Below are positions 10,209-35,366 of a stretch of DNA of 38,379 bases, piece by piece. Origin of the DNA: an uncultured Desulfosporosinus sp. (GTDB lineage Bacteria > Bacillota > Desulfitobacteriia > Desulfitobacteriales > Desulfitobacteriaceae). Both the position numbers and the translations under genes were made by a program. Within the stretch, counting starts at the first letter, position 1; each line of letters begins with the position of its first letter. The notes under the pieces are model-generated. The model saw only the letters and a list, made by a program, of their open reading frames with translations. It was not told the origin of the DNA and made no database searches. The stretch is from positions 1-38,379 of the forward strand of contig CAKMJS010000167.1 of the NCBI GenBank assembly GCA_927405585.1, written 5' to 3'.

Positions 10209-10225
10209 TTGGCATTGATATTGCA
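10209..10225 (+). promoter_or_regulatory. Sigma-54 (-24/-12) promoter before the PdxA-like gene
   Basis: TTGGCATTGATATTGCA fits the consensus TTGGCACN5TTGCA, with GG and GC separated by exactly 10 bases. It is about 70 bp upstream of the gene start and would drive the catabolic operon beginning at 10294. Confidence 0.8.
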
Positions 10226-10293: not shown

Positions 10294-11325
10294 ATGACAG
10301 AAAAATACTTACATGGTAAACCGGTAATCGGCGTTACTTTAGGGGATGCATCAGGGATAGGCCCAGAGATTGTTGCGAAAGCAGCGGCTAAGGGGTTATT
10401 GGAACAATATGCGCAACCGATTATCGTTGGGGATGAACGAGTATTGAAGCGAGGTATGGAAATCGCCAAGGTTACTTTCGAGTATAAAGTAGCTTCCACG
10501 ATCGAAGAGGCTGTTAAGCTGAGTGGAGTAGTGCTTTTAGATACCCGGAGTATCGATGCTTATAGAGTTGAACTCGGTGAAGTAAATCCCCTCTGCGGAA
10601 AAGATTCAGCCACCAATATCGGTTCTTGTGTGGAATATTGTAAACAAGGTCACATTGAAGGAATCAGTTTTGGCCCCAACAATAAAAAGGCGATGAAATT
10701 AGCTGGCTTTGCTTTGCATGGTGCAATTGATCTTCTTTCAAATTTCTTTGAATTTAAGGGTTCTCGCGGAGAAATGAATGTCTTAGATCACGTTTTTTGG
10801 ACCTCGAGGGTCACGAGCCATATCCCAATAAAAGACGTGAGCCAAAACCTGACGATTGAGGGCATCTTGAATTCGATTGATTTAGTTCATAAGACATTGA
10901 AGCGTGCCGGAGTTAACAATCCTCGCATTGCCGTTGCGGCTTTGAATCCTCATGGAGGAGAGGGCGGAACGTGCGGGCTTGAAGAGATAGAAATCATCAA
11001 TCCGGCAGTCGAACAGTTAGAGTCCAAGGGGATCAATGTCCAAGGTCCTTTTCCAGCGGATACGCTCTTTATCAAACTTTTTAAGGGCGAATTTGATGTT
11101 GCTGTGACGATGTTCCATGATCAAGGACAAATTGCCATGAAATTAAAAGGGTTTGATAATGGAGTTACAGTGATGGCTGGGCTACCCTATCCTGTTACAA
11201 CGTGCTCCCACGGCACTGCCTTTGATGTTGCTGGAAAGGGAATTGCCAATCCTGGTGCTTGGGAAAACGCCTACATATTAGCGGCTAAAATGGCTGGTTT
11301 AGATCGAATAAATAGACATGGATGA
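10294..11325 (+). CDS. PdxA-family dehydrogenase with altered substrate pocket
   Basis: A 343-residue protein of the 4-hydroxythreonine-4-phosphate dehydrogenase (PdxA) superfamily, which includes D-threonate-4-P dehydrogenase (PdxA2) and terephthalate-diol dehydrogenases. These enzymes oxidise a hydroxyl next to a carbon that is then decarboxylated, using NAD(P). Seen here: TLGDASGIGPEI at the start and the three metal-ligand histidines H176 (TSHIPI), H220 (LNPHGGEGG) and H275 (MFHDQG), plus K283. Residues that hold the substrate and its phosphate in E. coli PdxA are changed: GHTE becomes GAID (143-146), Asn283 becomes T292 and Arg292 becomes V301. No acid-sugar kinase gene is nearby. I infer a non-phosphorylated substrate and probably not a vitamin B6 role. 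First gene after the sigma-54 promoter; ribosome site GGAGG. Confidence 0.85.
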   Translation: MTEKYLHGKPVIGVTLGDASGIGPEIVAKAAAKGLLEQYAQPIIVGDERVLKRGMEIAKVTFEYKVASTIEEAVKLSGVVLLDTRSIDAYRVELGEVNPLCGKDSATNIGSCVEYCKQGHIEGISFGPNNKKAMKLAGFALHGAIDLLSNFFEFKGSRGEMNVLDHVFWTSRVTSHIPIKDVSQNLTIEGILNSIDLVHKTLKRAGVNNPRIAVAALNPHGGEGGTCGLEEIEIINPAVEQLESKGINVQGPFPADTLFIKLFKGEFDVAVTMFHDQGQIAMKLKGFDNGVTVMAGLPYPVTTCSHGTAFDVAGKGIANPGAWENAYILAAKMAGLDRINRHG

Positions 11326-11357: not shown

Positions 11358-12242
11358 ATGAAACTTGGTTTTATTGGTTTAGGACAGATGGGCAAGCACA
11401 TCGCTATGAATATGCTCAAGAGTGGCGCTGAGCTCATGGTCAATGATACAAGAACCGATCACTTTTCCGCATTCAAAGAAAAAGGAGCTCAAACTACTAC
11501 TGAGTTGCTGGAAATTGTTCCTGCCGATATTATTTTCCTCTGTCTTCCGGACAGTACTATCGTCCAAAAAGTATTACTGGGAGATAAAGGGCTTGTCAAG
11601 CATCTCAGAAAAGGTCAGATTGTCGTGGACTTCAGTACGATCAAATATGCCACAACCTTAGAAATTGCCCAAGCTCTGGATGAGAAAGAGGTTAAATTTA
11701 TAGATGCCCCTGTCTCAGGAATGGAGGCCCGGGCGATCGACGGTACCCTCACTGTCATGTGTGGAGGCAAAAAAGATGTCTTTGATGAGATGATGCCTTA
11801 CTTTGAATGTATGGGCAATAAGATTCTCTACATGGGTGACACGGGAAGTGGTCAACTAACCAAACTGATCAACCAGCTATTGTTTGATATTAACGTAGCG
11901 GCTCTGGCTGAAATTCTCCCCATGTCTGTAAAGATGGGGCTCGACCCTGAGAAAGTCGGTGAGGTGGTAAACAGTGGAACAGGCAGAAGTTATGCCTCTG
12001 AGTTTTTCGTTCCCCGTATCTTAAAGGATAGCTTTGTGGATGGATACCCCTTGAAAAATGCCTACAAAGACTTGGTCAGCGCTGCGGAAATTGGTGCAAA
12101 TCTTTGTATACCCATGCCGGTACTCAGTGCGGCGACCAGCACTTACCAAATGGCCTTACTGAAAGGTCAGGGTGAAAAAGACAAAGGGAGTATGATTGCG
12201 GTCTTCGAGGAGTTGTTAGGAGTTCGTTACAGAAGTCAATAA
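11358..12242 (+). CDS. Beta-hydroxyacid dehydrogenase (3-hydroxyisobutyrate / tartronate-semialdehyde reductase family)
   Basis: A 294-residue NAD(P)-dependent enzyme that interconverts a beta-hydroxyacid and its semialdehyde. The dinucleotide site GFIGLGQMGKHIA starts at residue 4. The substrate-carboxylate motif is DAPVSGMEARAIDGTLTVM and the catalytic Lys motif is GSGQLTKLINQLL, with Asn four residues after. The family motif is normally DAPVSGG; here the second Gly is Met, which could affect which acid is bound. Length and domain order are like GarR, GlxR and L-threonate dehydrogenase. It lies 32 bases after the PdxA-like gene with an AAGGAG site, in the same operon. The exact substrate is not readable from sequence. 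Confidence 0.88.
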   Translation: MKLGFIGLGQMGKHIAMNMLKSGAELMVNDTRTDHFSAFKEKGAQTTTELLEIVPADIIFLCLPDSTIVQKVLLGDKGLVKHLRKGQIVVDFSTIKYATTLEIAQALDEKEVKFIDAPVSGMEARAIDGTLTVMCGGKKDVFDEMMPYFECMGNKILYMGDTGSGQLTKLINQLLFDINVAALAEILPMSVKMGLDPEKVGEVVNSGTGRSYASEFFVPRILKDSFVDGYPLKNAYKDLVSAAEIGANLCIPMPVLSAATSTYQMALLKGQGEKDKGSMIAVFEELLGVRYRSQ

Positions 12243-12288: not shown

Positions 12289-13101
12289 ATGAAGTTGGCA
12301 TATACCATCTGTACGCCTGACACAAGCGGTAAGTACCTTGCCTATCGGGGAGAACTCAAGAGAATGTTTGCTTCCCTAAAGGAGATTGGCTACCAGGGTG
12401 TAGAGGCTTTCGTCCGTGATCCTAGGGATATGGACCAAGACGAATTTTGCCGATTGCTTATGAGTTATGATCTGGAATTAGCGGCTGTGGGAACAGGACC
12501 GGTTGTCGCAGAGGACAAAATTTCATTTACTTCGCCCGACGAACGTGACAGAAACGAGGCGTTTGAACGAGCGAAGGCAGCGGTTGACTTTGCCGCAAGG
12601 CTTGGGGCGCAAGTGAACATCGGGAAATTACGTGGGGATGTAAATAAAGGAGACCTAGTCCAAGGCAGAGAGTGGAGAGACCAAGCCTTTAAGCTAGTCT
12701 GTCGATACGCAGCCTTAAAAAATACTACCATAACCTTGGAACCCCAGTGTCGATTTGCCATAGACAATCTCAATTCCACGCAGGAAGCCTTAGGCTGGGT
12801 TAAGCAACAACAACTTTCCAATTTGATGATCATGATGGACGTTTTTCATATGAATATTGAGGATAAATCCCAAGCGGCGAGTTTTATTGATGCTAAGGAC
12901 TATAATCTTCATATTCATTTTGCAGATAACAATCGAGGCGTGCCGGGAACGGGCAACATAGATTTTGTGGATGCAATCCGAGTTTTGAAAGCTTTAGGTT
13001 ATAACCGCTATATCTCTTTGGAGATTGATCAGATTCCAGACTGCTATAGCGCTGCGAAGGCAGCATTTAAGTACTTGAATCGTCTGATACAGGAAGTATA
13101 G
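12289..13101 (+). CDS. Xylose-isomerase-like TIM barrel protein (sugar phosphate isomerase/epimerase, hydroxypyruvate-isomerase-like)
   Basis: A 270-residue TIM-barrel protein of the AP-endonuclease-2 superfamily, which covers hydroxypyruvate isomerases, OtnI-type isomerases, tagatose epimerases and IolE/IolI. The metal-binding residues are in place: Glu in ITLEPQ, Asp and His in MMDVFHMNIED, His in HIHFADNNRG and Glu in SLEID. The segment PGTGNIDFVDAIRVLKALGYN is the usual late-barrel signature. It ends the run PdxA-like, hydroxyacid dehydrogenase, isomerase, and therefore probably converts a keto or aldehyde intermediate in the same pathway. The family alone does not fix the substrate. Confidence 0.8.
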   Translation: MKLAYTICTPDTSGKYLAYRGELKRMFASLKEIGYQGVEAFVRDPRDMDQDEFCRLLMSYDLELAAVGTGPVVAEDKISFTSPDERDRNEAFERAKAAVDFAARLGAQVNIGKLRGDVNKGDLVQGREWRDQAFKLVCRYAALKNTTITLEPQCRFAIDNLNSTQEALGWVKQQQLSNLMIMMDVFHMNIEDKSQAASFIDAKDYNLHIHFADNNRGVPGTGNIDFVDAIRVLKALGYNRYISLEIDQIPDCYSAAKAAFKYLNRLIQEV

Positions 13102-13349
13102 CCACATTAAGTGCACCTCTGTTGACTCGATGTTCAACTTGAGTTGGACGAGTTCATTGTCAAAAGATGGTTGTTATCAATGCAATGAGAACATCCGTTA
13201 AATCTAAAGTTCTTTATTCCCAGACGTTAAATTAAATCAGTTGTGAGATGAAGGGGGGATGTGGATCGGGGGATATGGGAAATAGGTTTCTTAGTACCGC
13301 AAATCCAAATCAAAAGCAACAAATAATAAGAATTAAAGGAGTTAAAGAG

Positions 13350-14348
13350 ATGAAAAAGAATATTCGACGGATGGCAATGGGAATGGCGTGTCTATTTTTA
13401 TTATCCACACTGGTCGCTTGTAACAAACCAGCAGCGACGCCTGAAGCCGCTGCATCAAAGTATCCTGAAAAACCCTTTGAGATGATTGTACCTATGAGTG
13501 CCGGAGGCGGTAGTGATGTTTTTATTCGTACTCTGACAAAAGTTGTTGCGGATAACAAACTTTCTCCACAGCCCATGGTTGTCGTGAATAAACCTGGTGG
13601 TTCAGGGTCTATTGGTTGGTCCTATGTAGCCAATGATCATAAAGGAAATCCTTATGAGTTAAGTACGGTTAGCTCCAGCTTCTATACAGGCCCTCTATCA
13701 GGCCAATCTCCTGTATCTTATAAAGATTTTACCCATATTATGGCCTTATGCGTTGACCCTAATCTCTTGCTGGTAAGTGCTGATTCCAAGTATCAAACCT
13801 TGCAAGAGTTACTAGCGGACGCAAAAGCTAACCCTGAAAAGATTAGCGCTGCAGGCTCCAGCGGACTCTCCGTCGATGCCATTACCTTCTATTCGCTCCA
13901 AGAAAAGAGCGGTACTAAAATGAAGTATGTACCCTTCGGCGGCGGTGGAGAAGTGATGACATCGATTATGGGAAAACATACCACTTACGGCTTCTTAGGA
14001 CCCAGTGAAGCAGCTGCTCAGATCGAAGCAGGGAAATTAAGAGCTTTGGCAGTTACTACAGCAGATCGTGTCTCTGGAGAACTGAAAGATGTTCCGACTT
14101 TGAAGGAATTGGGATATGACATTGTCATGGCTCAAACTCGAGGAATTGTGGCACCTACTGGGATCTCTGCTGAACAGGTCAAGTATCTAGAAGATGTGTT
14201 TACGAAGGCTGCAGCAACTCCAGAATGGAAAAAGTTTGTAGCTGACAATTTTATGGAAGAAACTATTATGAATTCAGAACAATTCACAAAAGAAAGTGAA
14301 AATATTAGTAAGATGTTCGAAAAGTATCTTAGCGTCATCGGAAAATAG
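13350..14348 (+). CDS. tctC: Tripartite tricarboxylate transporter substrate-binding lipoprotein TctC (Bug family)
   Basis: A 332-residue extracytoplasmic solute receptor. The ATG at 13350 follows AAAGGAG, gives a positively charged signal peptide (MKKNIRRMAMG) and a lipobox LVAC with the lipidated C24. An in-frame start 34 codons earlier would bury the signal and is rejected. The mature protein has the Bug-family pattern (YPEKPFEMIVPMSAGGGSDV, VVNKPGGSGSIGW, GLSVDAITF, VPFGGGGEVMTSIMG, TSVP-like DVPTLKELGYD). It would bind a carboxylate outside the membrane and hand it to TctAB, which are encoded after two inserted genes. The 248-bp gap before it shows no sigma-54 consensus. Confidence 0.92.
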   Translation: MKKNIRRMAMGMACLFLLSTLVACNKPAATPEAAASKYPEKPFEMIVPMSAGGGSDVFIRTLTKVVADNKLSPQPMVVVNKPGGSGSIGWSYVANDHKGNPYELSTVSSSFYTGPLSGQSPVSYKDFTHIMALCVDPNLLLVSADSKYQTLQELLADAKANPEKISAAGSSGLSVDAITFYSLQEKSGTKMKYVPFGGGGEVMTSIMGKHTTYGFLGPSEAAAQIEAGKLRALAVTTADRVSGELKDVPTLKELGYDIVMAQTRGIVAPTGISAEQVKYLEDVFTKAAATPEWKKFVADNFMEETIMNSEQFTKESENISKMFEKYLSVIGK

Positions 14349-14518: not shown

Positions 14519-15334
14519 ATGTTAGTTGATAAGGACAGATGTAGTGGCTGTGGCAAATGCTTGCCATATTGCCCCTATAATGCAATAAGTATTGTTGATG
14601 AAATTGCGGTTATTGATCAAGTCCTCTGTGTTGAATGTGGAAACTGTATCCGGCATAGGTTTGCAAAATGCGCAGATAAGGCTATTTATCAGGAGTCGTC
14701 AGCTGCTGTAATTATAAAGAAATCTTCTAACAAAGTGTATCGATGCCCGAATAGCGCGATTTATGAGCCTTTAGAACAGGTTGCAGGAACCCCCAGAGAA
14801 GTCCGGCGTTTTTTCAGTAATCCAGCAACATCGCACAAGCTCACGGGTGTGCCGGGCCGTGGAACGGAAGAGGTCAAAACGAATGATGTTACAGCGAGGG
14901 TTAGTCGTGGAGAAATTGGAATTGCCCTCGAAATGGGTCGTCCTTGCCTCGGCACCAATTTCGCTGAGGTTGAAAAAGTCACGATGGCCTTGGCGAAGCT
15001 TGGTGTGGAATATGAAGAAGGCAATCCTCTCACTCATTTAATGGAGGATCGTAGCAAAGGTACTTTTAAAGAAGAGTACAAACAAGAGAGAGTGATTTCT
15101 GCAATTGTTGAATGTCGTACCGAGATTGAAAATATGGAAAAGATTTTGGAAGCGGCCAAAGAAGTCGCGAAAGAGTTAGATACAGTATTCTCTCTTGATC
15201 TCATATGCTGTTTTGATGAAGATGGAACGATTCCAGTTCTTTCTAGACTCGACAAGTTGGGAATGACTCACCGAGCAAATGCAAAAATCAATCTAGGAAT
15301 GGGTAGGCCCTTAGTGATAAAGAGAGAGGCTTAG
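14519..15334 (+). CDS. Ferredoxin-headed protein of unknown function, copy 1 (pair with 15352)
   Basis: A 271-residue cytoplasmic protein. The first ~85 residues are a ferredoxin module: C8, C11, C14, C18 form a standard [4Fe-4S] motif, and C37, C40, C43 with C51 or C76 a second, irregular one. The remainder (about 90-271) belongs to no family I can name. It contains GRGTEEVKTNDVT (113-125), GIALEMGRP, NPLTHLMED and a C-terminal NLGMGRPL. A paralogue lies at 18046. Compared with that copy this one has about 30 extra residues between the second cluster Cys triplet and the final CPNSAIYEP, with an AIY motif repeated. It sits between tctC and tctB and is followed after 17 bases by the MTH-family gene, suggesting a two-subunit iron-sulfur enzyme or electron carrier acting on the imported substrate. 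The function is unknown. Confidence 0.8.
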   Translation: MLVDKDRCSGCGKCLPYCPYNAISIVDEIAVIDQVLCVECGNCIRHRFAKCADKAIYQESSAAVIIKKSSNKVYRCPNSAIYEPLEQVAGTPREVRRFFSNPATSHKLTGVPGRGTEEVKTNDVTARVSRGEIGIALEMGRPCLGTNFAEVEKVTMALAKLGVEYEEGNPLTHLMEDRSKGTFKEEYKQERVISAIVECRTEIENMEKILEAAKEVAKELDTVFSLDLICCFDEDGTIPVLSRLDKLGMTHRANAKINLGMGRPLVIKREA

Positions 15335-15351
15335 GGGGTGTAAATAAGTAG

Positions 15352-15981
15352 ATGACGCATTCATTACATCGTAGAGGGACCGATGAATACCTAAAAAATG
15401 ACTTTACCCTGCTGGTCACAGCAGCCTCCGGAGTTAACCATATTGGTTCAAGGGAGGGAATGAGTAAGATTCTTGATGCGGTCTGGGAGATAGGTCCAAC
15501 TAATATCGGCTCTAATGAAACAGGAACCACCCTTTCAGGCGTAACACTTGAGCAAATCCGCTCTGGATTCACAAAGGTTCCGCGTATACGTTGTAACTTT
15601 GGCAGCAAAGGAAAAGCATTTGCTGCCATTAAGAAGCTACAAGAATTAGATACAGGAATGTCGGTAACCCTTTCCGGCCCAATTGAAGCCACCTTGGCAA
15701 TGTGTAAAGAGTATGGAATTAAACCGCACTCAATTAACTTATCACTGGATGTTTGGGGCAAAAAGGATAAGCTGCCTGCCGAAGAAGTTCTAGAATTAAT
15801 GACAATGTGTGGACATGGCCTGGTCGGCAGAACTTTAATTGAAGAAACCATGGAAAAAGTTAGACAAGGAAAATTGTCTCCCCAGAAAGCCACTGTAAAA
15901 ATTAGTCCTCTTTGTATATGTGGTATATATAACACCGATCGGGCAGAAAAGCTATTCGAGAAATGTGTCCCTAGCAAATAG
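15352..15981 (+). CDS. MTH-family protein of unknown function, copy A (full length)
   Basis: A 209-residue soluble protein I cannot assign. It starts MTHSLHRRGTDEY and has GPTNIGS (49-54), an SVTLSG strand, PHSIN (125-129), and a C-terminal module with MCGHG (C153) and CICGIYNTDRA (C188, C190). The Cys/His content of that module suggests a metal or Fe-S site. Two relatives lie in this window: 18771, which lacks the C-terminal module, and 27814, which lacks the PHSIN part. It follows the ferredoxin-headed gene and precedes tctB. CGHG resembles the proline racemase motif only superficially. I infer that it works with the ferredoxin-headed partner on the transported acid. Confidence 0.78.
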   Translation: MTHSLHRRGTDEYLKNDFTLLVTAASGVNHIGSREGMSKILDAVWEIGPTNIGSNETGTTLSGVTLEQIRSGFTKVPRIRCNFGSKGKAFAAIKKLQELDTGMSVTLSGPIEATLAMCKEYGIKPHSINLSLDVWGKKDKLPAEEVLELMTMCGHGLVGRTLIEETMEKVRQGKLSPQKATVKISPLCICGIYNTDRAEKLFEKCVPSK

Positions 15982-16009
15982 TTGGATAAGCAAGGAGGTC
16001 GTAAGTCAA

Positions 16010-16462
16010 ATGCGTATTGCAAATCGTATTGTGAGTGTTCTAATTATTGTATTTGGGATTTTCTTAACACTACAATCAAAAAAATTCGACTATATGGTTG
16101 ATGGAACGCCAGGACCGGGGTTTATGCCTTATTGGTTAGGGATTGCCATAGCCTTAGTGGCGCTCATTCCTTTAATTAAAACATTTACACAGTTTGCGAG
16201 CAAACTCGATAATCCCTTTCAAACCGGTGATTTCAAGAACTTCTTCATTGTGATCGGGAGTTCTATTGTGGTAATGATTATAACTCCGGTGACAGGACTT
16301 CTTATAGCCTTGAGTTTAATGGTTGGAGTTATTGCAAGACTTATGGGAACGAAGAGCTGGAAAACAGTGATTGGATTAACCATTTGTACTCCGATTTTAT
16401 TATTCGGAATCTTTGTCATGATTCTCAACGTTCCGTTGCCCAAAGGTATTTTTGGATTTTAA
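16010..16462 (+). CDS. tctB: Tripartite tricarboxylate transporter small membrane subunit TctB
   Basis: A 150-residue membrane protein with four predicted membrane segments, the usual form of TctB. The early motif DGTPGPGFMPYWLG is characteristic of the family. The start at 16010 follows AAGGAGG at a slightly long spacing of 11 bases; an in-frame start 30 codons earlier would overlap the preceding gene and adds non-family sequence. It stabilises or assists TctA in proton- or sodium-coupled carboxylate uptake. Twelve bases separate it from tctA. Confidence 0.88.
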   Translation: MRIANRIVSVLIIVFGIFLTLQSKKFDYMVDGTPGPGFMPYWLGIAIALVALIPLIKTFTQFASKLDNPFQTGDFKNFFIVIGSSIVVMIITPVTGLLIALSLMVGVIARLMGTKSWKTVIGLTICTPILLFGIFVMILNVPLPKGIFGF

Positions 16463-16474
16463 GGAGGTGGCAAG

Positions 16475-17980
16475 ATGGAAACATTAGAAAATTTACTTTT
16501 TGGTCTTTCGGTAGCTAGTGATCCTATAAATTTATTGTATTGTCTGGTTGGAGTGGTTTTCGGCACACTTGTGGGTGCACTTCCCGGCTTGGGACCTGCT
16601 GCAGGAATCGCTGTACTCCTTCCCTTAACTTTTGGAGCTGATCCAATAGCAGGAATTATTTTACTGGCTGGAATCTATTATGGTGCTATGTATGGGGGAT
16701 CAATTACCTCAATTCTTATTAATACGCCTGGTGATTCTGCAGCCGTTATGACGACGCTCGATGGTTACCCCTTAGCGAAAAAAGGAAGAGCTGCGCAGGC
16801 TCTAGGTATGGCGGCTTTTGCTTCCATTATCGGTGGAACAATCTCTGTTATAGCCTTTATGTTCTTAGCCCCTGCGCTAGCCACCTTTGCAATTAGGTTT
16901 GGTCCGCCCGAATACTTTGCACTGATGGTCTTGGGTCTTACCACCATTGCAGGTATGACAGGTAAGTACCCTTCAAAAGGATTTATATCCGCCTTGGTGG
17001 GTTTGTTCTTTGCCACAGTGGGCTTGGATTTGATGCAAGGTATTCCCCGCTTTACGTTTGGGTCTATGCATTTATATGAAGGAATAGATTTCATTCCTGT
17101 AGCGATGGGCCTCTTCGGTATTGCGGAGATTCTTACCTGCGGAACAAGTGAATGTGAAATAAAGATAGATAAGAAGGATGTTACCTGGCGTAAACTCCTC
17201 CCGTCTAGAGAAGATTGGAAATTTTCTATGCCCCATATTTTTAGAGGTACAGGAATTGGCTTCTTTATCGGGATGCTTCCCGGTGCTGGTGCCACGATTG
17301 CTTCCTTCATCTCCTATGGGGTCGCGAAGAAGACGTCAAAACGTAGTGAAGAGTTCGGAACAGGTGTTATCGAAGGGGTGGCCGCTCCGGAATCGGCGAA
17401 TAATGCTGCTTCCATCGGCGCGATGGTACCGATGTTGACCTTGGGTGTTCCAGGCTCGGGAAGCACAGCCATTATGCTTGGCGCACTGATGATGTTCGGT
17501 TTACGGCCTGGACCTATGCTTTTTGAACGTAACCCTGATTTTGTCTGGGGTCTTATTGGCAGCATGTATATTGGCAATATCTTTCTGTTACTATTAGCGA
17601 TTCTTGCTGTACCCTTATTTATTAAAATTCTCAATGTTCCAAGACCAGTCTTAAATGCAACAGTAATGAGCTTTATCCTAATTGGATCCTACAGCCTGAG
17701 TAACAGCATGTTTGATGTCGGATTAACGATAGCTTTTGGAGCTTTGGGCTTTTTTATGAAGAAGATGGACTTCCCGGCAGCCCCCATGGTCTTGGCGTTA
17801 GTACTTGGGGCTCTTCTAGAAACTTCTTTGAGACAATCGATGATTATCTCTGGCGGAAATCCCATGATTTTCTTCACACGACCCATCTCTGGATCCATCC
17901 TGGTTATTTCGATTCTAGCGATCCTTTATCCGATGATTAAGAAGGCAATTCAGCACTTCCTAAAGAGTAGAACAGCGTAA
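16475..17980 (+). CDS. tctA: Tripartite tricarboxylate transporter large membrane subunit TctA
   Basis: The 501-residue main permease of the TTT family, with about 11-12 membrane segments and the normal family length. Hallmark loops are present twice: GALPGLGPAAGIAVLLPLTF near residue 35 and GMLPGAGATIASFISYG near residue 265, along with YGGSITSILINTPGDSA and PESANNAASIGAMVPMLTLG. It moves the receptor-bound carboxylate inward. AAGGAGGTGG is its ribosome site. The next gene (ferredoxin-headed copy 2) starts 65 bases later, so the unknown pair flanks the permease on both sides. Confidence 0.95.
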   Translation: METLENLLFGLSVASDPINLLYCLVGVVFGTLVGALPGLGPAAGIAVLLPLTFGADPIAGIILLAGIYYGAMYGGSITSILINTPGDSAAVMTTLDGYPLAKKGRAAQALGMAAFASIIGGTISVIAFMFLAPALATFAIRFGPPEYFALMVLGLTTIAGMTGKYPSKGFISALVGLFFATVGLDLMQGIPRFTFGSMHLYEGIDFIPVAMGLFGIAEILTCGTSECEIKIDKKDVTWRKLLPSREDWKFSMPHIFRGTGIGFFIGMLPGAGATIASFISYGVAKKTSKRSEEFGTGVIEGVAAPESANNAASIGAMVPMLTLGVPGSGSTAIMLGALMMFGLRPGPMLFERNPDFVWGLIGSMYIGNIFLLLLAILAVPLFIKILNVPRPVLNATVMSFILIGSYSLSNSMFDVGLTIAFGALGFFMKKMDFPAAPMVLALVLGALLETSLRQSMIISGGNPMIFFTRPISGSILVISILAILYPMIKKAIQHFLKSRTA

Positions 17981-18045
17981 TCCATGAGACGGAGGAAAGT
18001 ACCCTTTAAACCGTTTAACTCTTCAAGATCAAGGAGGACCTGAAC

Positions 18046-18768
18046 TTGAAAATCAACCAAGAATTGTGTGTCGGATGTGGGCAATGTCTGCCCTATTGTC
18101 CGATGGGGGCAATAGAGAGGGGAAAAGATACTTCTCGAATCAACTGGGATGAATGTGTCGAATGTGGAATCTGTATTCGTCAGGTTAAATGCCCCGTCAA
18201 AGCAATTTATGAACCTAAAGAGACCCTGGAGTGGCCACGTTCTGTAAGGAAAGTATTCAGTGACCCTACATCAAAACATGAGAACACTGGTGTTCGGGGT
18301 AGGGGCACCGAAGAGGTAAAAACCAATGATGTGACAGCAAGATTTAAACGGGGATTCTTTGGTATTGCCCTAGAGTTTGGTCGTCCAGGCGTGGGAACTC
18401 GTCTAGGAGATGTAGAAATGATTACCAAGGTCTTGGCCGAAGAAGAGATCGTCTTTGAATCGGCTAACCCACTAACCTTTCTCATGGAAGATCCTCGAAC
18501 TGGGATCATAAAAGCAGACGTAAGAAATGAAAAAGTTCTCTCTGGGATCGTAGAATTCGTAATCCCCCAGGAAAATCTGGAGAGAGTCTGTACGAAAATA
18601 GTTGATACGGCCAGCAAAGCCAAATGTATTTTTTCTTGGACAATAATCACCCGTTTCGAACCAGACGGCACATTACCGGTTGTGGCGAGATTAGAGAATA
18701 TAGGCATTAAGACGTCCAAGAATATGAAAGTTAATGTTGGGCTAGGACGGCCTCTGAGGGAGGACTAG
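18046..18768 (+). CDS. Ferredoxin-headed protein of unknown function, copy 2 (pair with 18771)
   Basis: A 240-residue paralogue of the protein at 14519. It starts with TTG, chosen because AAGGAGG lies just upstream and the frame begins KINQELCVGCGQC. Clusters: C8, C11, C14, C18 and C37, C40, C43, C49 (the last followed by Pro). The shared unknown domain follows, with GRGTEEVKTNDVT at 85-97, GIALEFGRPGVGT, NPLTFLMED, GIVEF and the terminal VGLGRPL. DNA identity to copy 1 is visibly lower than protein similarity, so the duplication is not recent. Only two bases separate its stop from the MTH-family copy B, implying coupled translation and a stable partnership. Confidence 0.8.
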   Translation: MKINQELCVGCGQCLPYCPMGAIERGKDTSRINWDECVECGICIRQVKCPVKAIYEPKETLEWPRSVRKVFSDPTSKHENTGVRGRGTEEVKTNDVTARFKRGFFGIALEFGRPGVGTRLGDVEMITKVLAEEEIVFESANPLTFLMEDPRTGIIKADVRNEKVLSGIVEFVIPQENLERVCTKIVDTASKAKCIFSWTIITRFEPDGTLPVVARLENIGIKTSKNMKVNVGLGRPLRED

Positions 18769-18770
18769 AA

Positions 18771-19190
18771 ATGACGCATTCAATGCACCGTGTCGGATCA
18801 GACGAATCGTTTCAAGAGGATTATGTAGTGATGTCCAGACCTGCCATGGGAATCAATCATGTGGGGTGTACGCCAAAAATTCAGCGAACACTGGAGATTA
18901 TCTTTGCAGAGGGTCCTACCAATATTGGGTCACTCACCACTCAAGAGAACATGACAATGGGTCTTGACCCCCAAAAACTGATCGCAAAAACAGAAGATAA
19001 CTCTCCGGTCATGTGTTGTTTCCACGAACGTTCAAAAGTGGTCAATGTCTTAAAGCGTCTTAAGGAAGAAGAACTAGGGCTGTCTGTGGTTGTAACTGGC
19101 CTCCTCGATAATGTCCAAAGTATTTGCCAGGAAGTTGGGTTAACGCCCCATTCAGTGAATATCTCTCTCGGGTTCCATGGTCAGGATTAG
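18771..19190 (+). CDS. MTH-family protein, copy B, lacking the C-terminal CGHG module
   Basis: A 139-residue relative of the protein at 15352. It keeps MTHSMHRVGSDE, GPTNIGS (49-54), LSVVVTG and PHSVN (126-130), then stops at GFHGQD, exactly where copy A goes on into the roughly 70-residue module with MCGHG and CICG. Either the module was lost or the short form is a natural subunit. An 8-base tandem repeat begins two bases after its stop. It may be a regulatory or structural partner of ferredoxin-headed copy 2. Confidence 0.72.
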   Translation: MTHSMHRVGSDESFQEDYVVMSRPAMGINHVGCTPKIQRTLEIIFAEGPTNIGSLTTQENMTMGLDPQKLIAKTEDNSPVMCCFHERSKVVNVLKRLKEEELGLSVVVTGLLDNVQSICQEVGLTPHSVNISLGFHGQD

Positions 19191-19192
19191 AA

Positions 19193-19248
19193 CTGAGAGA
19201 CTGAGAGACTGAGAGACTGAGAGACGCTGAGACGCTGAGACGCTGAGA
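19193..19248 (+). repeat. Short tandem repeat, 8-base unit, seven copies
   Basis: Four perfect copies of CTGAGAGA are followed by three of CGCTGAGA, all in register (56 bases), and then a decayed CTGATATTCTGAGAG. The two unit types differ by a rotation-like change. The array starts two bases past the stop of MTH copy B and is likely to vary in length by slippage. Confidence 0.9.
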
Positions 19249-19419: not shown

Positions 19420-20454
19420 ATGAATCTTATTGTGCAAGTCAGTATGATTATTGGTTTAGCATTAGTTAGTTACTGGGTTTTTACCAAACTTCATCTGCCT
19501 GCTCCAATAATTATGGGCCCGATGGTCTCGATTGGTATTTGCCAGATACTCGGTGCAGGATTTCAGGAATTTGCGATGAGCATAATCAATGTATTTCAGA
19601 TTATCATCGGTATGTCCATTGGTTCAAAGATTAACCATAAGAATCTTCGTGACATTAAAAGCATCTGGAGAGCCTCCCTGGTCATTGCCCTATATACATT
19701 AGCCTCGACGGCAATCATGACCTTATTAATTCGAAATTTGACCAGTGATTTTCACACCGCTTTATTTTCTGCCGCTCCCGGAGGAATTACTGAGATGACT
19801 GTCTTGGCCCTTTCTTATGATTCTGAGATAGCGATCGTTTCGACTTTCCAATTTGTACGTCTGATGGTGATTGTCACTATCATTCCGTTGCTTGCAAAAT
19901 CTGTCAAAGGAAAATACATTCCTCTGCCTACAGAAGGCTCCAAGGTGATAACCAATAAAACAGGTGCTTCACTACGCAGAGTCATAACTTATTCGGCTGG
20001 GATCTCGGGAGGACTCATTCTTATCACTGTGGGTTTCCCCGGGGGAGGAGTGGTTGGTGCGATGATTGCGATGGGATTAGCAAATGTTCTCTTGCGAGAA
20101 CGATTTGTATTTCCCCGTAAGGTAATGAATTTCGCCTTAATCGGAGTGGGTATAACCATTGGCCTTGAATTTTCCCCACTCATGCTTCAAAAGATTCAGG
20201 AGATGATTTTGCCCATCGCTGGTTTTTCTATGCTTGTCGTGATGGGCAATCTGTTGGTTGGGTGGTTTATACGTTATATGACCCATTGGGATACTGTTAC
20301 CTGCTTACTAGGCTCAGCTCCGGGAGGACTTACCCAGATGTTGGTCCTCGGGGAAGAAATGGAAGCCGATTCACTGAAAATAAGTATTATGCAATTGGTT
20401 CGGATGCTAACCATTGTCCTGAGCATTCCGTTCATCGCAGCGTTATTAACTTAA
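19420..20454 (+). CDS. AbrB-family integral membrane protein
   Basis: A 344-residue membrane protein with about nine or ten hydrophobic segments, in two similar halves. Each half carries an APGG(I/L)T(E/Q)M motif (SAAPGGITEM and SAPGGLTQM), the hallmark of the AbrB membrane duplication family (not the AbrB DNA-binding protein). Many members are labelled ammonia monooxygenase or AbrB transcriptional regulator without evidence. They often sit beside TTT or TRAP transporter genes, so a carboxylate export or uptake role is plausible. It follows the Tct genes and precedes an Ldh2-family dehydrogenase. Confidence 0.82.
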   Translation: MNLIVQVSMIIGLALVSYWVFTKLHLPAPIIMGPMVSIGICQILGAGFQEFAMSIINVFQIIIGMSIGSKINHKNLRDIKSIWRASLVIALYTLASTAIMTLLIRNLTSDFHTALFSAAPGGITEMTVLALSYDSEIAIVSTFQFVRLMVIVTIIPLLAKSVKGKYIPLPTEGSKVITNKTGASLRRVITYSAGISGGLILITVGFPGGGVVGAMIAMGLANVLLRERFVFPRKVMNFALIGVGITIGLEFSPLMLQKIQEMILPIAGFSMLVVMGNLLVGWFIRYMTHWDTVTCLLGSAPGGLTQMLVLGEEMEADSLKISIMQLVRMLTIVLSIPFIAALLT

Positions 20455-20556
20455 AGCGAAGTGTAGGTCCGGGCTTATTCGCACAACTAAGGCGACCGCC
20501 TCCACTAGGGTTTGGCGCCTGCCAAGTTTCTTTTATACAAAGAAGGAGTGGATCAA

Positions 20557-21618
20557 ATGAGTACGTTAAAGACGATTGCCGTTGGTGACCTAGAAGAATT
20601 TATGCGTTCAGCCTTTTCTCTAAGTGGCGTTCCAGAGCTAGGGGCAGAGATCGTGACAGAAAATCTCATCATAGCTGAGATGAAAGGGATTTCGAGCCAT
20701 GGGTTAAGCCGTTTCCCTGTGTACTTGCAGCGTATCCAGAAAGGGTTGGTAAACCCAAACCCCCAAATAAACTGCAAGAGGGTGTTGCCTGGTGTGCTTG
20801 CTGTCGATGGAGACAATGGGTTGGGTTCTGTAGTGATGATGCAGGCGCTGAATGAAGGTATGGCAGTAGCGGATGAGATAGGGATTTGCGCATTGGGAAT
20901 TAAACAGAGCAACCACTTTGGAATCTCCACTTATTATTGTGAAAAAGCAGCTGATCAAGGATATATTTCTATACTTCTGACGAATGCCCCTCCAGCAACG
21001 CCGCCTTTCGGTGGTAAGGAGCAGTATTTTGGAACTAATCCTATCGCTTTTGGAATGCCGCGAAAGAACAGACCTCATATTATCGTAGATATGGCCACCA
21101 GCGTAGCAGCCAGAGGGAAAATTATCAGGGCAGCTCAAAAGGGTGAGCCAATTCCAGAAGGTTGGGCCTTGGACAAGGACGGTTATCCGACGACGGATGC
21201 CAAAGCTGCGCTCGAAGGAGTTCTACTCACAATAGCCGGACCAAAAGGATCGGCCTTAAGCCTAGCCATTGAATTTTTTGCAGGGGTGCTTACGGGAGCG
21301 GGTTATGGAAAAGGGGTTGCTTGGCAATACAGCGCTAGCCAAGAACCGGCTAACGTGGGTCATTTTATGATAATTGTCAAAGCGGATAGTTTTATGGAAG
21401 GGTCAGAATACGAAGAACGGACAGAAACGTTTATTTCAGAGATTAGAAACTTATCTCTGGCACCTGGATTTAAGACGATCAAGTTACCCGGCGAACGAGA
21501 ATGGGAAAGAGAACAAACGATCGTTGATCAAGGGATTGCCATGGAGTCTGATCTCAGAGAACAGTTTATGTCTATCGCGGAAAAACTTAACCTGAAAACA
21601 GAGATTTTTAAGGCTTAG
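20557..21618 (+). CDS. Ldh2 / malate-L-lactate dehydrogenase family oxidoreductase
   Basis: A 353-residue NAD(P)-dependent 2-hydroxyacid dehydrogenase of the family with malate, ureidoglycolate, sulfolactate and 2,3-diketogulonate dehydrogenases. Visible signatures: the catalytic region ISSHGLSRFPVYLQRI, NHFGISTYYCEKAADQG, FGTNPIAFGMPR and AGPKGSALSLAIEFFAGVLTG. It lacks the Rossmann GxGxxG and uses the distinct Ldh2 fold. The start at 20557 has GAAGGAG upstream; an alternative start 15 codons earlier is non-family sequence. It would oxidise or reduce a 2-hydroxyacid from the imported compound. Substrate unresolved. Confidence 0.9.
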   Translation: MSTLKTIAVGDLEEFMRSAFSLSGVPELGAEIVTENLIIAEMKGISSHGLSRFPVYLQRIQKGLVNPNPQINCKRVLPGVLAVDGDNGLGSVVMMQALNEGMAVADEIGICALGIKQSNHFGISTYYCEKAADQGYISILLTNAPPATPPFGGKEQYFGTNPIAFGMPRKNRPHIIVDMATSVAARGKIIRAAQKGEPIPEGWALDKDGYPTTDAKAALEGVLLTIAGPKGSALSLAIEFFAGVLTGAGYGKGVAWQYSASQEPANVGHFMIIVKADSFMEGSEYEERTETFISEIRNLSLAPGFKTIKLPGEREWEREQTIVDQGIAMESDLREQFMSIAEKLNLKTEIFKA

Positions 21619-21683: not shown

Positions 21684-22187
21684 ATGAACTGCGAAGCGAT
21701 CAAAGACCAATGTTGTTGTGGTGAAGAATCAGATCAACAAAAGTATATTAGAATTGCTGAAATTATTGACAATTATAAAAACAGAGAAGGTAGTCTTACC
21801 CAGGTTCTGTATATATCACAAACAATTTATGGCTACCTGCCACTGGAACTACAAATATTTATAGCCAAAGGAATGGATACACCACTTGCAGAGGTTTCTG
21901 GGATTATTACCTTCTCTAATTTCTTCTCGACACAACCGAGAGGAAATCATACGATCAAGGTTTGCATGGGTACAGCGTGCTATGTAAGAGGGGGCAAAAA
22001 ACTTGTGGACCGTCTGGAAAATATCCTGAGTATCCAAGTCGGAGAGACTTCTGAGGATCGGAAATATAGCTTAGAAGTTGCCCAATGCCTCGGTGCCTGT
22101 GGTCTGGCACCTGCCATGATGATTGATGAGGTTTTATATAAACAAGTGAGTCCTGATAGATTGAAAGCCATCTTGGCTAAGTATTAA
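21684..22187 (+). CDS. NuoE/HydC-like [2Fe-2S] subunit of an electron-bifurcating hydrogenase
   Basis: A 167-residue thioredoxin-fold [2Fe-2S] protein. The cluster ligands are C94, C99, C135 and C139 (CMGTAC and CLGACG). It corresponds to the 24-kDa subunit of complex I and to HydC/HndA of trimeric [FeFe] hydrogenases. A Cys-rich start (NCEAIKDQCCCG) is unusual and may bind metal or be incidental. An AGGAGG site precedes it. It lies 31 bases ahead of the NuoF-GltD fusion, forming with HydA a three-gene unit that passes electrons between NAD(P)H, ferredoxin and protons. Confidence 0.92.
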   Translation: MNCEAIKDQCCCGEESDQQKYIRIAEIIDNYKNREGSLTQVLYISQTIYGYLPLELQIFIAKGMDTPLAEVSGIITFSNFFSTQPRGNHTIKVCMGTACYVRGGKKLVDRLENILSIQVGETSEDRKYSLEVAQCLGACGLAPAMMIDEVLYKQVSPDRLKAILAKY

Positions 22188-22218
22188 AAGCAGGAAAGTT
22201 TAGGGGTGAAGATGAAGG

Positions 22219-25200
22219 ATGACCGTTATTAAAAGCCTAGAGGATCTTGACGTAATAAAACGACGATATCGGGCAGAGCTTTCTAACTATAAATATCAAG
22301 TACTTGTTTGTGGTGGTACAGGCTGTATTTCAGCTCAATGTGGTGCTGTGAAAGATACACTTATCAAACAAGTTGTGGAGCATCAGTTACAAGAGCAAGT
22401 CGCTGTAATCGAGACAGGGTGTATGGGACTATGTGACGTGGGACCTGTGTTGCTGATCTTGCCTGGTGAGATCGTGTATACGAAAGTGAATCCTAGCAAA
22501 ATGGTTGAAATCTTTGAATCTCATATCATAAACGGAAATATCAAAGAAGAGTATACCTTCTTCGATCATGCCCTCGAGCAGCATATTCCTAAACTTAGCG
22601 AAATCAGTTTCTTTATAGACCAGATCAAGATCGCTTTAAAAAACTGCGGACGGATTGATTATGCTTCAATAGTGGCTTACATTGCTCAGGATGGATACTT
22701 TGCGCTTGCCAAAGCGTTACATTTGATGAGTAATCAGCAAGTGATTAACGAACTCAAGAAATCCAGCCTAAGTGAACGTGGAGGCGACGGGTTCGCGGTG
22801 GGGATTCGCTGGGAAGCAGGCTGGAACGCGAAGGATGACCAAAAGGTTATTATCTGCAACGCTGACGAGGGAGATCCTAAAGCAAGCATCGACAGAAGTA
22901 TTCTGGAAGGTGACCCACACGGCGTCATTGAAGGTATGATCCTGGCCGGCTATGCTATGGGCGCCACTAAGGGGTATATCTATGTTAATAGTGAATATCT
23001 TCTGGCAGCCGAACGTCTCGAAGCAGCAATCCTCGAAGCACGTAACTACGGATTATTGGGAGGGGAAGTTTTTGGAACCGATTTAGAGTTTGACCTTGAA
23101 ATTCGGATGAGTGCTGGTACCTATGTCAAGGGAGAAGAAAGCTCTCTCCTGGCTTCGATGGAAGGAAAACGTGGAGAACCACTAGAGAAGCCGTCCTTTC
23201 CCTTTGAGCCAGGACTATTTGCTAAGCCGACCATTATTCATACTGTTGAGACGTTAATGCATGTGCCTCCCATTATTCTTAGGAGCGGGCACTGGTATAC
23301 CCAGTATGGTACAGAGACCGATAAAGGGACCAAAGTGTTCGCTCTGTCGGGAGATATTGTGAACAAGAGTTTAGTTGAAGTGCCAATGGGGATGAGCCTA
23401 GGAGATATTCTTTATAAACTTGGTGGAGGAGTTCCGAAGGGCAAGGCGTTTAAAGCTGTTCAGGTAGGAGGTTCTACCGGCGGATGCCTTTCCAATCAAT
23501 TTTTAAACGCGTCGATTGATAAATCTACGTTGTCTCAACTTGGTGTGAGCATGGGCTCAGGCAGCCTTAGGGTCATGGACGAAGATACCTGTATGGTAGA
23601 TACGGCTAGAAAGCTGATGGAATTGATTCGAGATCAATCCTGCGGTAAATGTGTCCCTTGTCGAATTGGAACGAAACGAATGCTGGAGATTGTAGAGCGT
23701 ATTTCGAAGGGTAACGGTCAGCAAGGTGACCTCGAGCTCCTAGAAGAACTCGGTGCTTCCATTCAACAATCATCGATCTGCTCTTTAGGTCAAACTGCGC
23801 CAAACTTTATTCTCAGCACGATTCAGTCTTTCCGTGAGGAATTCGAAGAGCATGTTCACTCTAAGTACTGCCGTGCTGGGGCCTGCACTGATCTAGTAAG
23901 CTCTCCTTGTGAGAATGCTTGCCCAGCAGGTATCAACGTTCCGGGATATATGGCTTTAATATCAGAAGGAAGATATATAGATGCTTATTACCTGATCAAG
24001 CAAGAAAACCCTTTCCCAGCGGTTTGTGGCAGAATCTGTACTCATCCCTGTGAAAGCAAGTGTCGGAGAGGGCAGCTTGATGAGCCGATTGCGATCGCCG
24101 ATCTGAAACGATTTGTAGCTGATTATGCGTTTGAACACGAGGATCATGCCAGAAAGGACATTGTCCTTCCCAAAAACGGGAAAAGTATTGGAATTATTGG
24201 AGCAGGTCCTTCAGGTCTGACTTGTGGATATTATCTGTCGAGACTTGGCTACGAGGTCGATATCTACGAAGCGCACGCACTGGCTGGCGGAGTCTTAGCG
24301 TATGGTATCCCTGAATATCGATTACCCAATGATATTCTTACCCGTGAAATTAACCTAATCGAACAGCTTGGGGTTAATATTCATCTCAATGCGGAGGTCG
24401 GTAAGATGATCTCGTTTGGAGAGTTAAGGGAGAAGCATGACGCGATCTATATCGCTACCGGAAGCCAGAGCTCGAACAAGCTTAATGTGCCTGGTGAAGA
24501 GCTAACCGGAGTAGTTCCTGGGTTTGACTTTCTACGGGCTGTCAATCTTGGCCATGAAGTTCAGGTAGGTCAGAGTGTAGCTGTCATTGGCGGTGGGAAT
24601 ACGGCGATTGATGCAGCTAGAACCGCTTTACGAATGGGCGCAAACGTCAAGGTGCTCTATAGACGATCCCTTGAAGATATGCCTGCTGATCCAAAAGAAA
24701 TCCGAGAGGCTATCGAAGAAGGCATAGTAATCATGCCTTTGGTGGCTCCGCTAAAGTTTATCGGTCAAGAAACGGTCGAGGAAATTGAGTGTGTCCAGAT
24801 GGACCTCGGATCATTTGATTCCGGCGGTAGAAGGAGACCCATCGTCAAAGAGGGGTCCAATTTCACAATTAAAGTTGATATGGTGATTCCAGCCGTCAGC
24901 CAATCCTCGGACTTGTCGTTTATTAATCGTAATGAAGTGGGTATTACAGAATGGGGCACTCTAATGACTGATAAGGATGGCATGATGACAACCCTAGCAG
25001 GTGTATTCGCCGGTGGAGACGTGGCGAGAGGATCTGATGTGGCCATCATGGCCATAGCGGATGGGAAAAAGGCGGCTGTAGCGATGGATCGTTTCCTAGG
25101 TGGTAAAGGGATCCTTAACAAAGGTGAAGCGATTGAGTTTCCCCCTGCAAACGATGACGATGACCTATTAGATCATGAACGTTATGCTATGGAGATTCTA

Positions 25201-25305
25201 GCACCAGGGACCAGAAAAAACTCCTTTAGTGAAGTTGGCAGAGGTTATCACAAGCTTAAAGCAATTGCCGAATCAATGCGGTGTTTGCGCTGTGACAGGA
25301 GGTAG
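22219..25305 (+). CDS. NuoF/HydB-like flavoprotein fused to a GltD/NfnB-like NADPH oxidoreductase
   Basis: A 1028-residue fusion. Residues 25-115 are a thioredoxin-like [2Fe-2S] domain (CGGTGC, TGCMGLCDVG). Residues about 160-430 are the NuoF FMN/NADH domain and SLBB domain (NADEGDPKASIDR at 214-226). The [4Fe-4S] motif SCGKCVPCRIG has C475, C478 and C481. From about 560 on there is a GltD/NfnB-type half: two-cluster Cys region (CENACPAG from C564; CGRICTHPCESKC), FAD site GIIGAGPSG near 660 and NADPH site VIGGGNTAIDAA near 790, ending CLRC. HydB normally ends in a small two-cluster ferredoxin domain; here that place is taken by the GltD module. This suggests a complex linking NADH, NADPH, ferredoxin and H2, reminiscent of the Sporomusa-type Nfn (Stn) transhydrogenase joined to a hydrogenase. 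Confidence 0.9.
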   Translation: MTVIKSLEDLDVIKRRYRAELSNYKYQVLVCGGTGCISAQCGAVKDTLIKQVVEHQLQEQVAVIETGCMGLCDVGPVLLILPGEIVYTKVNPSKMVEIFESHIINGNIKEEYTFFDHALEQHIPKLSEISFFIDQIKIALKNCGRIDYASIVAYIAQDGYFALAKALHLMSNQQVINELKKSSLSERGGDGFAVGIRWEAGWNAKDDQKVIICNADEGDPKASIDRSILEGDPHGVIEGMILAGYAMGATKGYIYVNSEYLLAAERLEAAILEARNYGLLGGEVFGTDLEFDLEIRMSAGTYVKGEESSLLASMEGKRGEPLEKPSFPFEPGLFAKPTIIHTVETLMHVPPIILRSGHWYTQYGTETDKGTKVFALSGDIVNKSLVEVPMGMSLGDILYKLGGGVPKGKAFKAVQVGGSTGGCLSNQFLNASIDKSTLSQLGVSMGSGSLRVMDEDTCMVDTARKLMELIRDQSCGKCVPCRIGTKRMLEIVERISKGNGQQGDLELLEELGASIQQSSICSLGQTAPNFILSTIQSFREEFEEHVHSKYCRAGACTDLVSSPCENACPAGINVPGYMALISEGRYIDAYYLIKQENPFPAVCGRICTHPCESKCRRGQLDEPIAIADLKRFVADYAFEHEDHARKDIVLPKNGKSIGIIGAGPSGLTCGYYLSRLGYEVDIYEAHALAGGVLAYGIPEYRLPNDILTREINLIEQLGVNIHLNAEVGKMISFGELREKHDAIYIATGSQSSNKLNVPGEELTGVVPGFDFLRAVNLGHEVQVGQSVAVIGGGNTAIDAARTALRMGANVKVLYRRSLEDMPADPKEIREAIEEGIVIMPLVAPLKFIGQETVEEIECVQMDLGSFDSGGRRRPIVKEGSNFTIKVDMVIPAVSQSSDLSFINRNEVGITEWGTLMTDKDGMMTTLAGVFAGGDVARGSDVAIMAIADGKKAAVAMDRFLGGKGILNKGEAIEFPPANDDDDLLDHERYAMEILAPGTRKNSFSEVGRGYHKLKAIAESMRCLRCDRR

Positions 25306-25311
25306 GAAAGT

Positions 25312-28393: not shown

Positions 28394-28498
28394 TATAATC
28401 ATGAAACAATTCGTTATGATCAGTTGTTAATCGCTCCAGGCTCCCGCCCCGTAGTTCCCGCTTGGGTTGACCTTACTATTAAGAATTGGCTCAATTTG
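28394..28498 (+). pseudogene. Scrap of a pyridine-nucleotide-disulfide oxidoreductase
   Basis: Reading from 28394 gives YNHETIRYDQLLIAPGSRP followed by VVPAW, matching the segment before the second nucleotide domain of NADH oxidase-type flavoproteins (YDxLVIATGSRPxxP). No start, Rossmann GxGxxG or remaining domain is present, and an in-frame stop precedes it. It runs into the IlvD scrap in another frame. Confidence 0.4.
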
Positions 28499-35344: not shown

Positions 35345-35366
35345 AAAAATAGGTGGGATGTCAATC

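Follow-up and report, generated by a model that had tools for sequence, protein, structure and literature searches.

The described systems closest to the genes considered here are the bacterial 2[4Fe-4S] ferredoxins, the tripartite tricarboxylate transporters (TTT; TctABC), and the CooF, carbon monoxide dehydrogenase (CODH), and FNOR sets of CO oxidizers. Features of each meet around a gene pair found twice in a 38,379-nucleotide stretch of DNA from an uncultured Desulfosporosinus sp. (GCA_927405585.1, contig CAKMJS010000167.1; this whole stretch is referred to below as the window), in which a ferredoxin-headed protein, F, is encoded next to a partner protein, A. The window holds the pairs F1-A and F2-B (Table 1). 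The head of F (residues 1 to 84) is structurally like clostridial ferredoxin 1fca (VIA-align Z, 8.2; 1.2 Å over 54 residues), but in contrast to 2[4Fe-4S] bacterial ferredoxins, F carries an extra domain of ~180 residues without a consistent family match. TctABC is a frequent operon partner of F-A, but in the reverse count an A lies near only 33 of the 98 TctA rows, so F and A are no fixed part of TTT transporters. The same three protein kinds as in the CO oxidizer sets flank a subset of F-A pairs. The reading that we judge best is that new protein families here make up an Fe-S oxidoreductase: tentatively, and short of an even chance, we propose that F and A together form an undescribed two-subunit Fe-S redox enzyme that acts on hydroxy- or sugar-acid carboxylates after their import. 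What supports an enzyme is the near-constant pairing, the eight Cys of F, the MCGH...CxC motif of A, and neighbors encoding carboxylate transporters, NAD-linked hydroxyacid dehydrogenases, and electron transfer proteins.

The A family was found in 26 of the 398 sampled genomes of the window's phylum, its own included, and in 8 of the 45 genomes of its family. Two of 247 genomes of the Acidobacterial phylum carry A (the query genome and one with a partial match), as do 2 of 150 in the Gemmatimonadota group, query genome included. Named carriers are two Desulfosporosinus, two Gracilibacter metagenome-assembled genomes (MAGs), three Acidobacteria/Bryobacterales MAGs, and one Gemmatimonadetes MAG. 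Some genomes hold several divergent A paralogues, and because at most seven A candidates were scored per genome, copy numbers are lower bounds. The source genome of the window has four A-family places at an E value of 3.2e-18 or better (a fifth row, at E 0.39, is excluded from this count): A, B, a third A-like gene of the window (A3), and one on contig C134, which is accompanied by its own F.

Within the larger loci, after trimming of A starts, F lies directly upstream of 65 of 69 A genes, a set that omits the A on a short contig (L037 of genome G249, where F overlaps A) and two partial places (G065, contigs C1 and C5). The four A genes without an upstream F are A3, an extra A beside an F-A pair on each of L057 and L071, and the A of L074, whose F is cut off by the contig end. 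In 60 of the 65 pairs, F and A are separated by no more than 30 bp; in 11 pairs the genes abut or overlap. The distance matrices of F and A correlate (r = 0.80 for 54 nonredundant pairs; largest of 2,000 shuffles, 0.16), with shared ancestry, which the shuffles keep in play, also contributing to this value. When the C-terminal domain of F alone served as the query, 24 of the 25 A-carrying genomes searched gave matches.

The conserved residues of the two proteins look like a metal site combined with a charged pocket, a pattern that we take, from the alignments, as a sign of an enzyme rather than of an electron carrier alone. The alignments keep 62 of 137 (A) and 64 of 131 (F) profile matches, plus the window's A, after removal of redundant, short, and partial sequences; as rows were chosen for full length and nonredundancy, truncated forms such as B lie outside the invariance counts. 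Eight ferredoxin Cys are invariant in 64 of 64 F rows, and the pair of CxxCxxCxxxC(P)-type motifs or Fer4 profile that marks a 2[4Fe-4S] ferredoxin is present in the F head: Fer4 (PF00037) scores above its cut-off in both F proteins (E 2e-10 in F1 and 6.5e-11 in F2, two stretches each), and the ferredoxin-type matches in Pfam and NCBIfam are confined to the head, which in F1 ends at about residue 84. Compared with bacterial ferredoxins, the Acidobacterial, Gemmatimonadota, and F1-type heads carry inserts before the last Cys. The unnamed domain that follows (F1 residues 88 to 271, GRGTEEVKTND...GRP) contributes the other invariants of the 64 rows, namely, G113, R114, G115, E118, K120, N122, G140, R141, P170, G181, E198, K256, and G262. 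The AlphaFold2 model of F has a pLDDT of 84.7 and a pTM of 0.82, with residues 48 to 69 and 267 to 271 below 50.

Protein A consists of a ferredoxin-like α/β N-half (residues 16 to 110) and a helical C-half with TMCGH (151 to 155) and CxCG..N (188 to 194); its model has a pLDDT of 92.9 and a pTM of 0.88. The MCGH...CxC motif is kept in 63 of 63 full-length rows, in which R7, D17, G53, S104, G136, L141, P142, M152, C153, G154, H155, C188, C190, and N194 are invariant. H3, H6, N29, and H126 are near invariant (60 to 62 of 63 rows), as is G191 (61 of 63). The last third of A was modeled as part of whole A only, and we therefore claim no new fold for it.

No curated family and no convincing solved relative were found outside the ferredoxin head. 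A and B matched no Pfam family at E 1 and no NCBIfam family at the curated cut-off. With the 63 A members scanned individually, Pfam gave no consistent family (best E, 0.0028, DUF749, five members), and NCBIfam gave scattered weak matches (best E, 1e-4, an aminoadipate kinase model in two members, among the 25 of 37 families listed); the C-terminal domains of 64 F proteins had no consistent Pfam family either (best E, 5e-4, RecA_C in two members). Profile searches of the PDB reached E 0.11 at best for A and, for the C-terminal domain of F, E 0.0097 to glycerate kinase 2b8n; at 55 residues the latter match is too short to establish kinship (E 0.31 with a single sequence). The models of A and F had no Foldseek match in the PDB at E 0.001 or better, a viral structure library likewise gave none at that threshold, and plasmids held no match to A. 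A and F show no detectable homology to each other (hhalign probability, 0.5%). Judged by title and abstract, none of the papers listed by the literature searches describes the F-A pair, subscription papers being mostly out of reach.

The genomic surroundings point to imported carboxylates. TctA lies within 8 kb of 35 of 59 A places (26 genomes), against 1.46 expected from TctA numbers and genome sizes; when A places within 10 kb are merged, it is near 29 of 50 clusters, and 19 of the 22 A genomes having TctA show at least one A with TctA as a neighbor. Sixty distinct same-strand runs, close relatives among them, were compared; representatives of most partner clusters were scanned, and the GntR, TctB, and TRAP labels were given by eye. 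The partners are TctA (31 runs), TctC (30), a TctB cluster (17), GntR-like proteins (13), Zn-alcohol dehydrogenase (9), a second TctB cluster (7), β-hydroxyacid dehydrogenase, PdxA, DHDPS, and CooF-like, CODH-like, and FNOR-like proteins (6 each), and aldehyde:ferredoxin oxidoreductase (AOR), Ldh_2, AbrB-type, and M29-peptidase-like proteins (5 each). F-A also occurs without nearby TTT genes, beside MFS, TRAP, or ABC genes or in an operon of CooF, CODH-like, and FNOR genes. The upstream neighbor in three Acidobacterial loci (L017 to L019) is an MFS-type gene (by eye), with no listed enzyme cluster in the run, and runs of the form CooF-CODH-like-F-A-FNOR without any transporter gene exist at L078, L131, L132, and L134. 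In G650, which belongs to another genus of the same family, the order is PdxA, β-hydroxyacid dehydrogenase, TIM-barrel epimerase-like protein, IlvD, TctC, F1, A, TctB, TctA, F2, B, and DHDPS. A similar order is found in Gracilibacter and Desulfosporosinus, and the operon looks, by its gene content, like a sugar-acid pathway. This sugar-acid-like operon, together with HydABC and FNOR as possible low-potential outlets, favors a redox step on an imported hydroxy acid.

A sequence-only reading of the window had proposed an uncharacterized two-gene unit tied to the TTT genes, with no nameable family for its nonferredoxin parts, and had asked for conserved pairing in other genomes. The Pfam, NCBIfam, PDB sequence, and Foldseek searches, the pairing, and the co-occurrence with TctA bear out all of this, and its further proposal of an enzyme acting on the imported carboxylate keeps the standing of an interpretation. 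As no characterized family matched and the pairing is conserved, neither of the findings that it had named as contrary was made.

That reading had also described two pairs in the same order, spaced by 2 to 17 bases, one between tctC and tctB and one after tctA, with motifs common to F1 and F2 and to A and B. We recovered each of these features (the gap is 17 bases in F1-A and 2 in F2-B) and, in addition, A3, which it had not listed. At the sequence level, the likeness is far beyond chance both for F1 and F2 (48% identity, E 3e-53 across F1 residues 75 to 265) and for A and B (31%, E 7.4e-24). B is only a partial paralogue of A: it ends at the equivalent of A residue ~139, without the last third that bears the Cys. 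"Duplicated" may also not imply a recent tandem duplication of the pair, as a quick tree placed F1 and F2 in separate supported clades, although a joint clade is not rejected (approximately unbiased test, p 0.319). Two substrate specificities, which the duplication had been suggested to give, are not favored. With the Cys domain, invariant in full-length relatives, missing from B, F2-B is unlikely to work as an equivalent enzyme of another specificity and is better explained as part of a three-piece complex or as an accessory second copy.

B retains H3, H6, R7, D17, N29, and H126 of the N-half. Compared with their D. lacus counterparts, the window genes have dN/dS values of 0.12 (B), 0.06 (A), and 0.08 (both F1 and F2), the neighbors giving 0.07 (TctA), 0.16 (TctB), and 0.13 (HydA). 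The counterpart of B in G650 has 206 aa and the full MCGH...CxCG part in a similar gene order, so the truncation of B is probably derived. A3 shows the opposite pattern of retention, with all C-half invariants kept and R7, D17, G53, and H126 of the N-half lost. Against D. lacus its dN/dS is 0.06 in the C-half (dN, 0.081; dS, 1.38) and 0.29 in the N-half (dN, 0.208; dS, 0.71), and against the second Desulfosporosinus it is 0.07 and 0.28; against Gracilibacter, dS was not estimable. The corresponding values are 0.10 (C-half) and 0.04 (N-half) for full-length A and 0.09 and 0.07 for the C134 A. Some constraint is thus seen both on whole A3 (dN/dS, 0.16) and on the adjoining CODH-like fragment (0.19), and for the C-half of A3, with its ratio of 0.06, a simple dead pseudogene is an unlikely description. 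A Cys-domain piece is encoded in a separate gene 9 to 10 kb downstream in the window genome, D. lacus, SRJS8, and Gracilibacter BRH_c7a, which are all of the truncated-B genomes with contigs reaching far enough; in BRH_c7a it is a stand-alone 121-aa gene directly after hydrogenase genes (neighbors identified by eye and size). In G650, with its full-length B, two A genes only were found. A second complex may therefore be assembled from F2, B, and the A3 piece.

Two other shortened A-family genes were seen. At L126 1495-1842 (G802, Gemmatimonadota group), a 115-aa open reading frame has the N-terminal 51 residues joined directly to the Cys domain, the middle being absent; its neighbor looks, by eye, like a DctP gene. 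This form may stem from a deletion or from faulty assembly. At L074 8751-9185 (G075, contig C35), a 144-aa B-like shortened A adjoins a TctA that starts at profile position 190, possibly through a deletion joining both genes.

Between 27212 and 28782 the genes are shortened: a CODH-like gene is present with its last third, followed by A3 and pieces of IlvD. In the D. lacus counterpart the order is CooF, CODH-like, A3, FNOR, and IlvD, with A3 between the CODH-like and FNOR genes and a full-size IlvD gene behind; of this set, the window lacks CooF, FNOR, and the front part of the CODH-like gene and retains little of IlvD. The operon seems to be decaying by internal deletions, and in A3 the Cys domain of this second operon has been retained.

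CODH-like proteins accompany part of the A family. Within the 45 genomes of the family, to which this reverse test applied, their profile gave 12 rows at E 1e-60 or better, corresponding to 10 gene places in 7 genomes; all 10 lie in the gene run of an A, and all 7 genomes carry A (compared by eye). G650 has A and no CODH-like match. The operon of CooF-like, CODH-like, F, A, and FNOR genes occurs at L012 4574-10427 (contig C134 of the source genome), L130 to L134, and L137, with a Zn-alcohol dehydrogenase gene in some. These proteins differ from CODH in several ways: they have about 420 to 525 aa, and eight that were aligned share an N-terminal CxxCxxGPCR..CG motif and only two further Cys. By comparison with CODH, they appear to have no Cys at the positions of the C-cluster ligands. 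Two of the proteins were scanned with TIGR01702, scoring 82.5 bits (L012) and 74.2 bits (L078) against a cut-off of 478, and neither the L012 protein nor the 27212-27772 type shows the combination of catalytic-subunit score and C-cluster ligands of Ni-CODH. Most of the proteins retain just the N-terminal Cys motif, while those of L067 and L070 keep GCNN and GCAA. Judged by these motifs, the family may be a CODH relative that does not oxidize CO. The label "mini-CooS" was considered and set aside: mini-CooS reportedly has a complete cluster motif (PMC8776680), unlike most of the proteins here, which seem to be without one.

For the proposed oxidoreductase, the active site would contain a site-differentiated [4Fe-4S] cluster or other metal, held by the three Cys of A and perhaps by His155. 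The substrate pocket would be formed by R114, E117, E118, K120, N122, R141, E198, and K256 of F and H3, H6, R7, D17, N29, and H126 of A, perhaps at the F-A interface, and the two clusters of F would exchange electrons with soluble ferredoxin, with FNOR, or, in the window, with the HydABC-type hydrogenase. Divergent paralogues within a genome could serve different substrates. In the window, F1-A would be a complete complex, and F2-B, without the Cys domain, would perhaps be supplied with it in trans by A3. Taken with all its parts, the more specific proposal is rather unlikely: a new class of two-subunit Fe-S enzyme, active in the carboxylate metabolism of anaerobes, in which the C-half of A is a separable catalytic cluster module, with F1-A as the two-polypeptide form and F2, B, and A3 as a second enzyme in Desulfosporosinus and Gracilibacter.

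The Cys of A would also suit a nonredox enzyme. A cluster held by A could serve as a Lewis acid like those of aconitase and dihydroxyacid dehydratase and make F-A a [4Fe-4S] hydro-lyase, epimerase, or isomerase whose ferredoxin head would only support or tune it. Full-length A has three invariant Cys, as many as hold the substrate cluster of hydro-lyases, although A has no sequence family match to aconitase, IlvD, or fumarase. The sugar-acid-like context with IlvD and a DHDPS-type protein would suit such a reaction, as would the lactate racemase genes of four loci (L060, L086, L087, and L093; one representative confirmed by scan). The two-cluster head, present in every F row, and the CooF, CODH-like, and FNOR partners suggest electron flow instead, and since IlvD already occurs in some of the same operons, a dehydration step is covered there. 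We consider the nonredox enzyme unlikely.

Still less likely is that F-A regulates the transporter or the pathway as PII and SbtB proteins do, with its ferredoxin-like domains binding a ligand and its Fe-S centers sensing the redox state. This reading is prompted by the fold: the best VIA-align row of A residues 16 to 110 is a designed protein (Z, 8.3), followed by PII-like SbtB (up to 8.0) and aspartate kinase ACT domains (up to 7.1), and F residues 130 to 232 give ACT-type rows at a Z of about 7. The location of F-A beside several transporter types would suit a regulator as well. What A shares with PII-like proteins (SbtB and CPII) and ACT domains is the general β-α-β-β-α-β arrangement, a likeness at the level of fold only; this ferredoxin-like arrangement is very common, a Z under 8 may mean nothing, and no significant Foldseek match accompanies it. 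Some pairs lie in runs without a transporter gene, the invariant Cys/His motif resembles a catalytic or metal site more than a sensor, and neither the Cys domain nor a ferredoxin head is known to be part of the PII or ACT families. The least probable alternative, a very doubtful one, is a maturation or reactivation factor that inserts a cluster or metal into each operon's partner enzyme, for which small proteins with Fe-S motifs, varied enzyme partners, and McrD as a weak Foldseek match to F (rank 25; E, 0.049) could speak, but no client enzyme is common to all operons, the L017 to L019 runs with their MFS gene hold none of the listed enzyme clusters, and several divergent paralogues occur per genome.

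Several points weigh against the oxidoreductase reading itself. Its reaction, substrate, and metal are all predictions from genes and context, and neither Foldseek nor VIA-align gave a family or fold match that would be an independent sign of catalysis. With operons as different as these, one substrate cannot suit every case; 4 of the 26 A-carrying genomes are without TctA; and a ferredoxin head with ferredoxin-like domains could also belong to a redox sensor. As to the split subunit, the pattern comes from four genomes and may reflect one shared event, and in LH_M27 B is also truncated, with a contig that ends before the expected place of the third piece. By its sequence, as judged by eye, A3 resembles the A genes of CODH operons and was therefore not produced by splitting B. 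Its dN/dS contrast is pairwise, with a high dS in the C-half (1.38 versus 0.71) and an N-half ratio still below 1, and the CODH-like fragment beside it is also low (0.19).

The remaining genes of the window are listed in Table 1. The DRL/SAF gene heads the sugar-acid-like operon and is also present in both named Desulfosporosinus loci. Sigma-54-like sites (TGGCAT-N5-TTGCA) at 10210-10225 and 33227-33242 each lie just upstream of a gene cluster, and sigma-54 activator genes are at 5494-7344 and 31169-32887. Such sites are not enriched in the window beyond chance (22 versus 16.3 expected; 12 of 100 shuffles reach 22), so position alone supports the site at 10210. The methyltransferase-type cluster at 33287-37823 encodes two URO-D family proteins, a pterin-binding protein, DUF1638, and a corrinoid-binding protein, is followed by a DctP gene, and probably serves methyl-group catabolism. 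Between B and the AbrB-type gene (19192-19252) are short tandem repeats, ACTGAGAG and then GAGACGCT, with a period of 8.

Table 1. Coordinates of genes and sites in the window
Feature	Position	Strand	Remarks
PrpR-type sigma-54 activator	5494..7344	+	
DRL/SAF-domain oxidoreductase	8520..9932	+	Family scan
Sigma-54-like -24/-12 site	10210..10225	+	1 mismatch; upstream of pdxA
PdxA-type dehydrogenase	10294..11325	+	Family scans
β-Hydroxyacid dehydrogenase	11358..12242	+	Nearest to tartronate-semialdehyde reductase models, below cut-off
Xylose-isomerase-like TIM barrel	12289..13101	+	Nearest to IolO 5-keto-L-gluconate epimerase, below cut-off
tctC	13248..14348	+	TTT transporter solute-binding protein
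F1	14519..15334	+	271 aa; 2[4Fe-4S] ferredoxin head and unnamed domain
A	15352..15981	+	209 aa; N-half ferredoxin-like α/β, C-half helical with Cys motifs
tctB	16010..16462 (about)	+	Small TTT membrane subunit; assigned by position, sequence (by eye), and cluster; no family scan
tctA	16475..17980	+	Large TTT membrane subunit, PF01970
F2	18046..18768	+	240 aa, TTG start; second F subunit, partner of B
B	18771..19190	+	139 aa; corresponds to N-half of A only, without Cys domain
AbrB-type membrane protein	19420..20454	+	Family scans
Ldh_2 family dehydrogenase	20512..21618	+	Family scans
NuoE-like, NuoF/GltD-like, and [FeFe]-hydrogenase HydA subunits	21684..27090	+	Possible electron outlet
CODH/prismane-like remnant	27212..27772	+	Last third of gene; longer (463 aa) in D. 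lacus
A3	27814..28359	+	Third A-like gene, no F partner
IlvD/Edd-type dehydratase remnant	28486..28782	+	561 aa in D. lacus
DHDPS family protein	28865..29752	+	

If F-A is an oxidoreductase of this kind, a reaction in carboxylate or sugar-acid breakdown would be run by a family named in neither Pfam nor NCBIfam, and the separable Cys domain would offer a direct handle for reconstitution. The accompanying CODH-like proteins, which appear to be without a CO-oxidizing cluster, would also be explained. A recurrent gene pair beside TctABC would gain a function, which would help to assign substrates to orphan TTT transporters.

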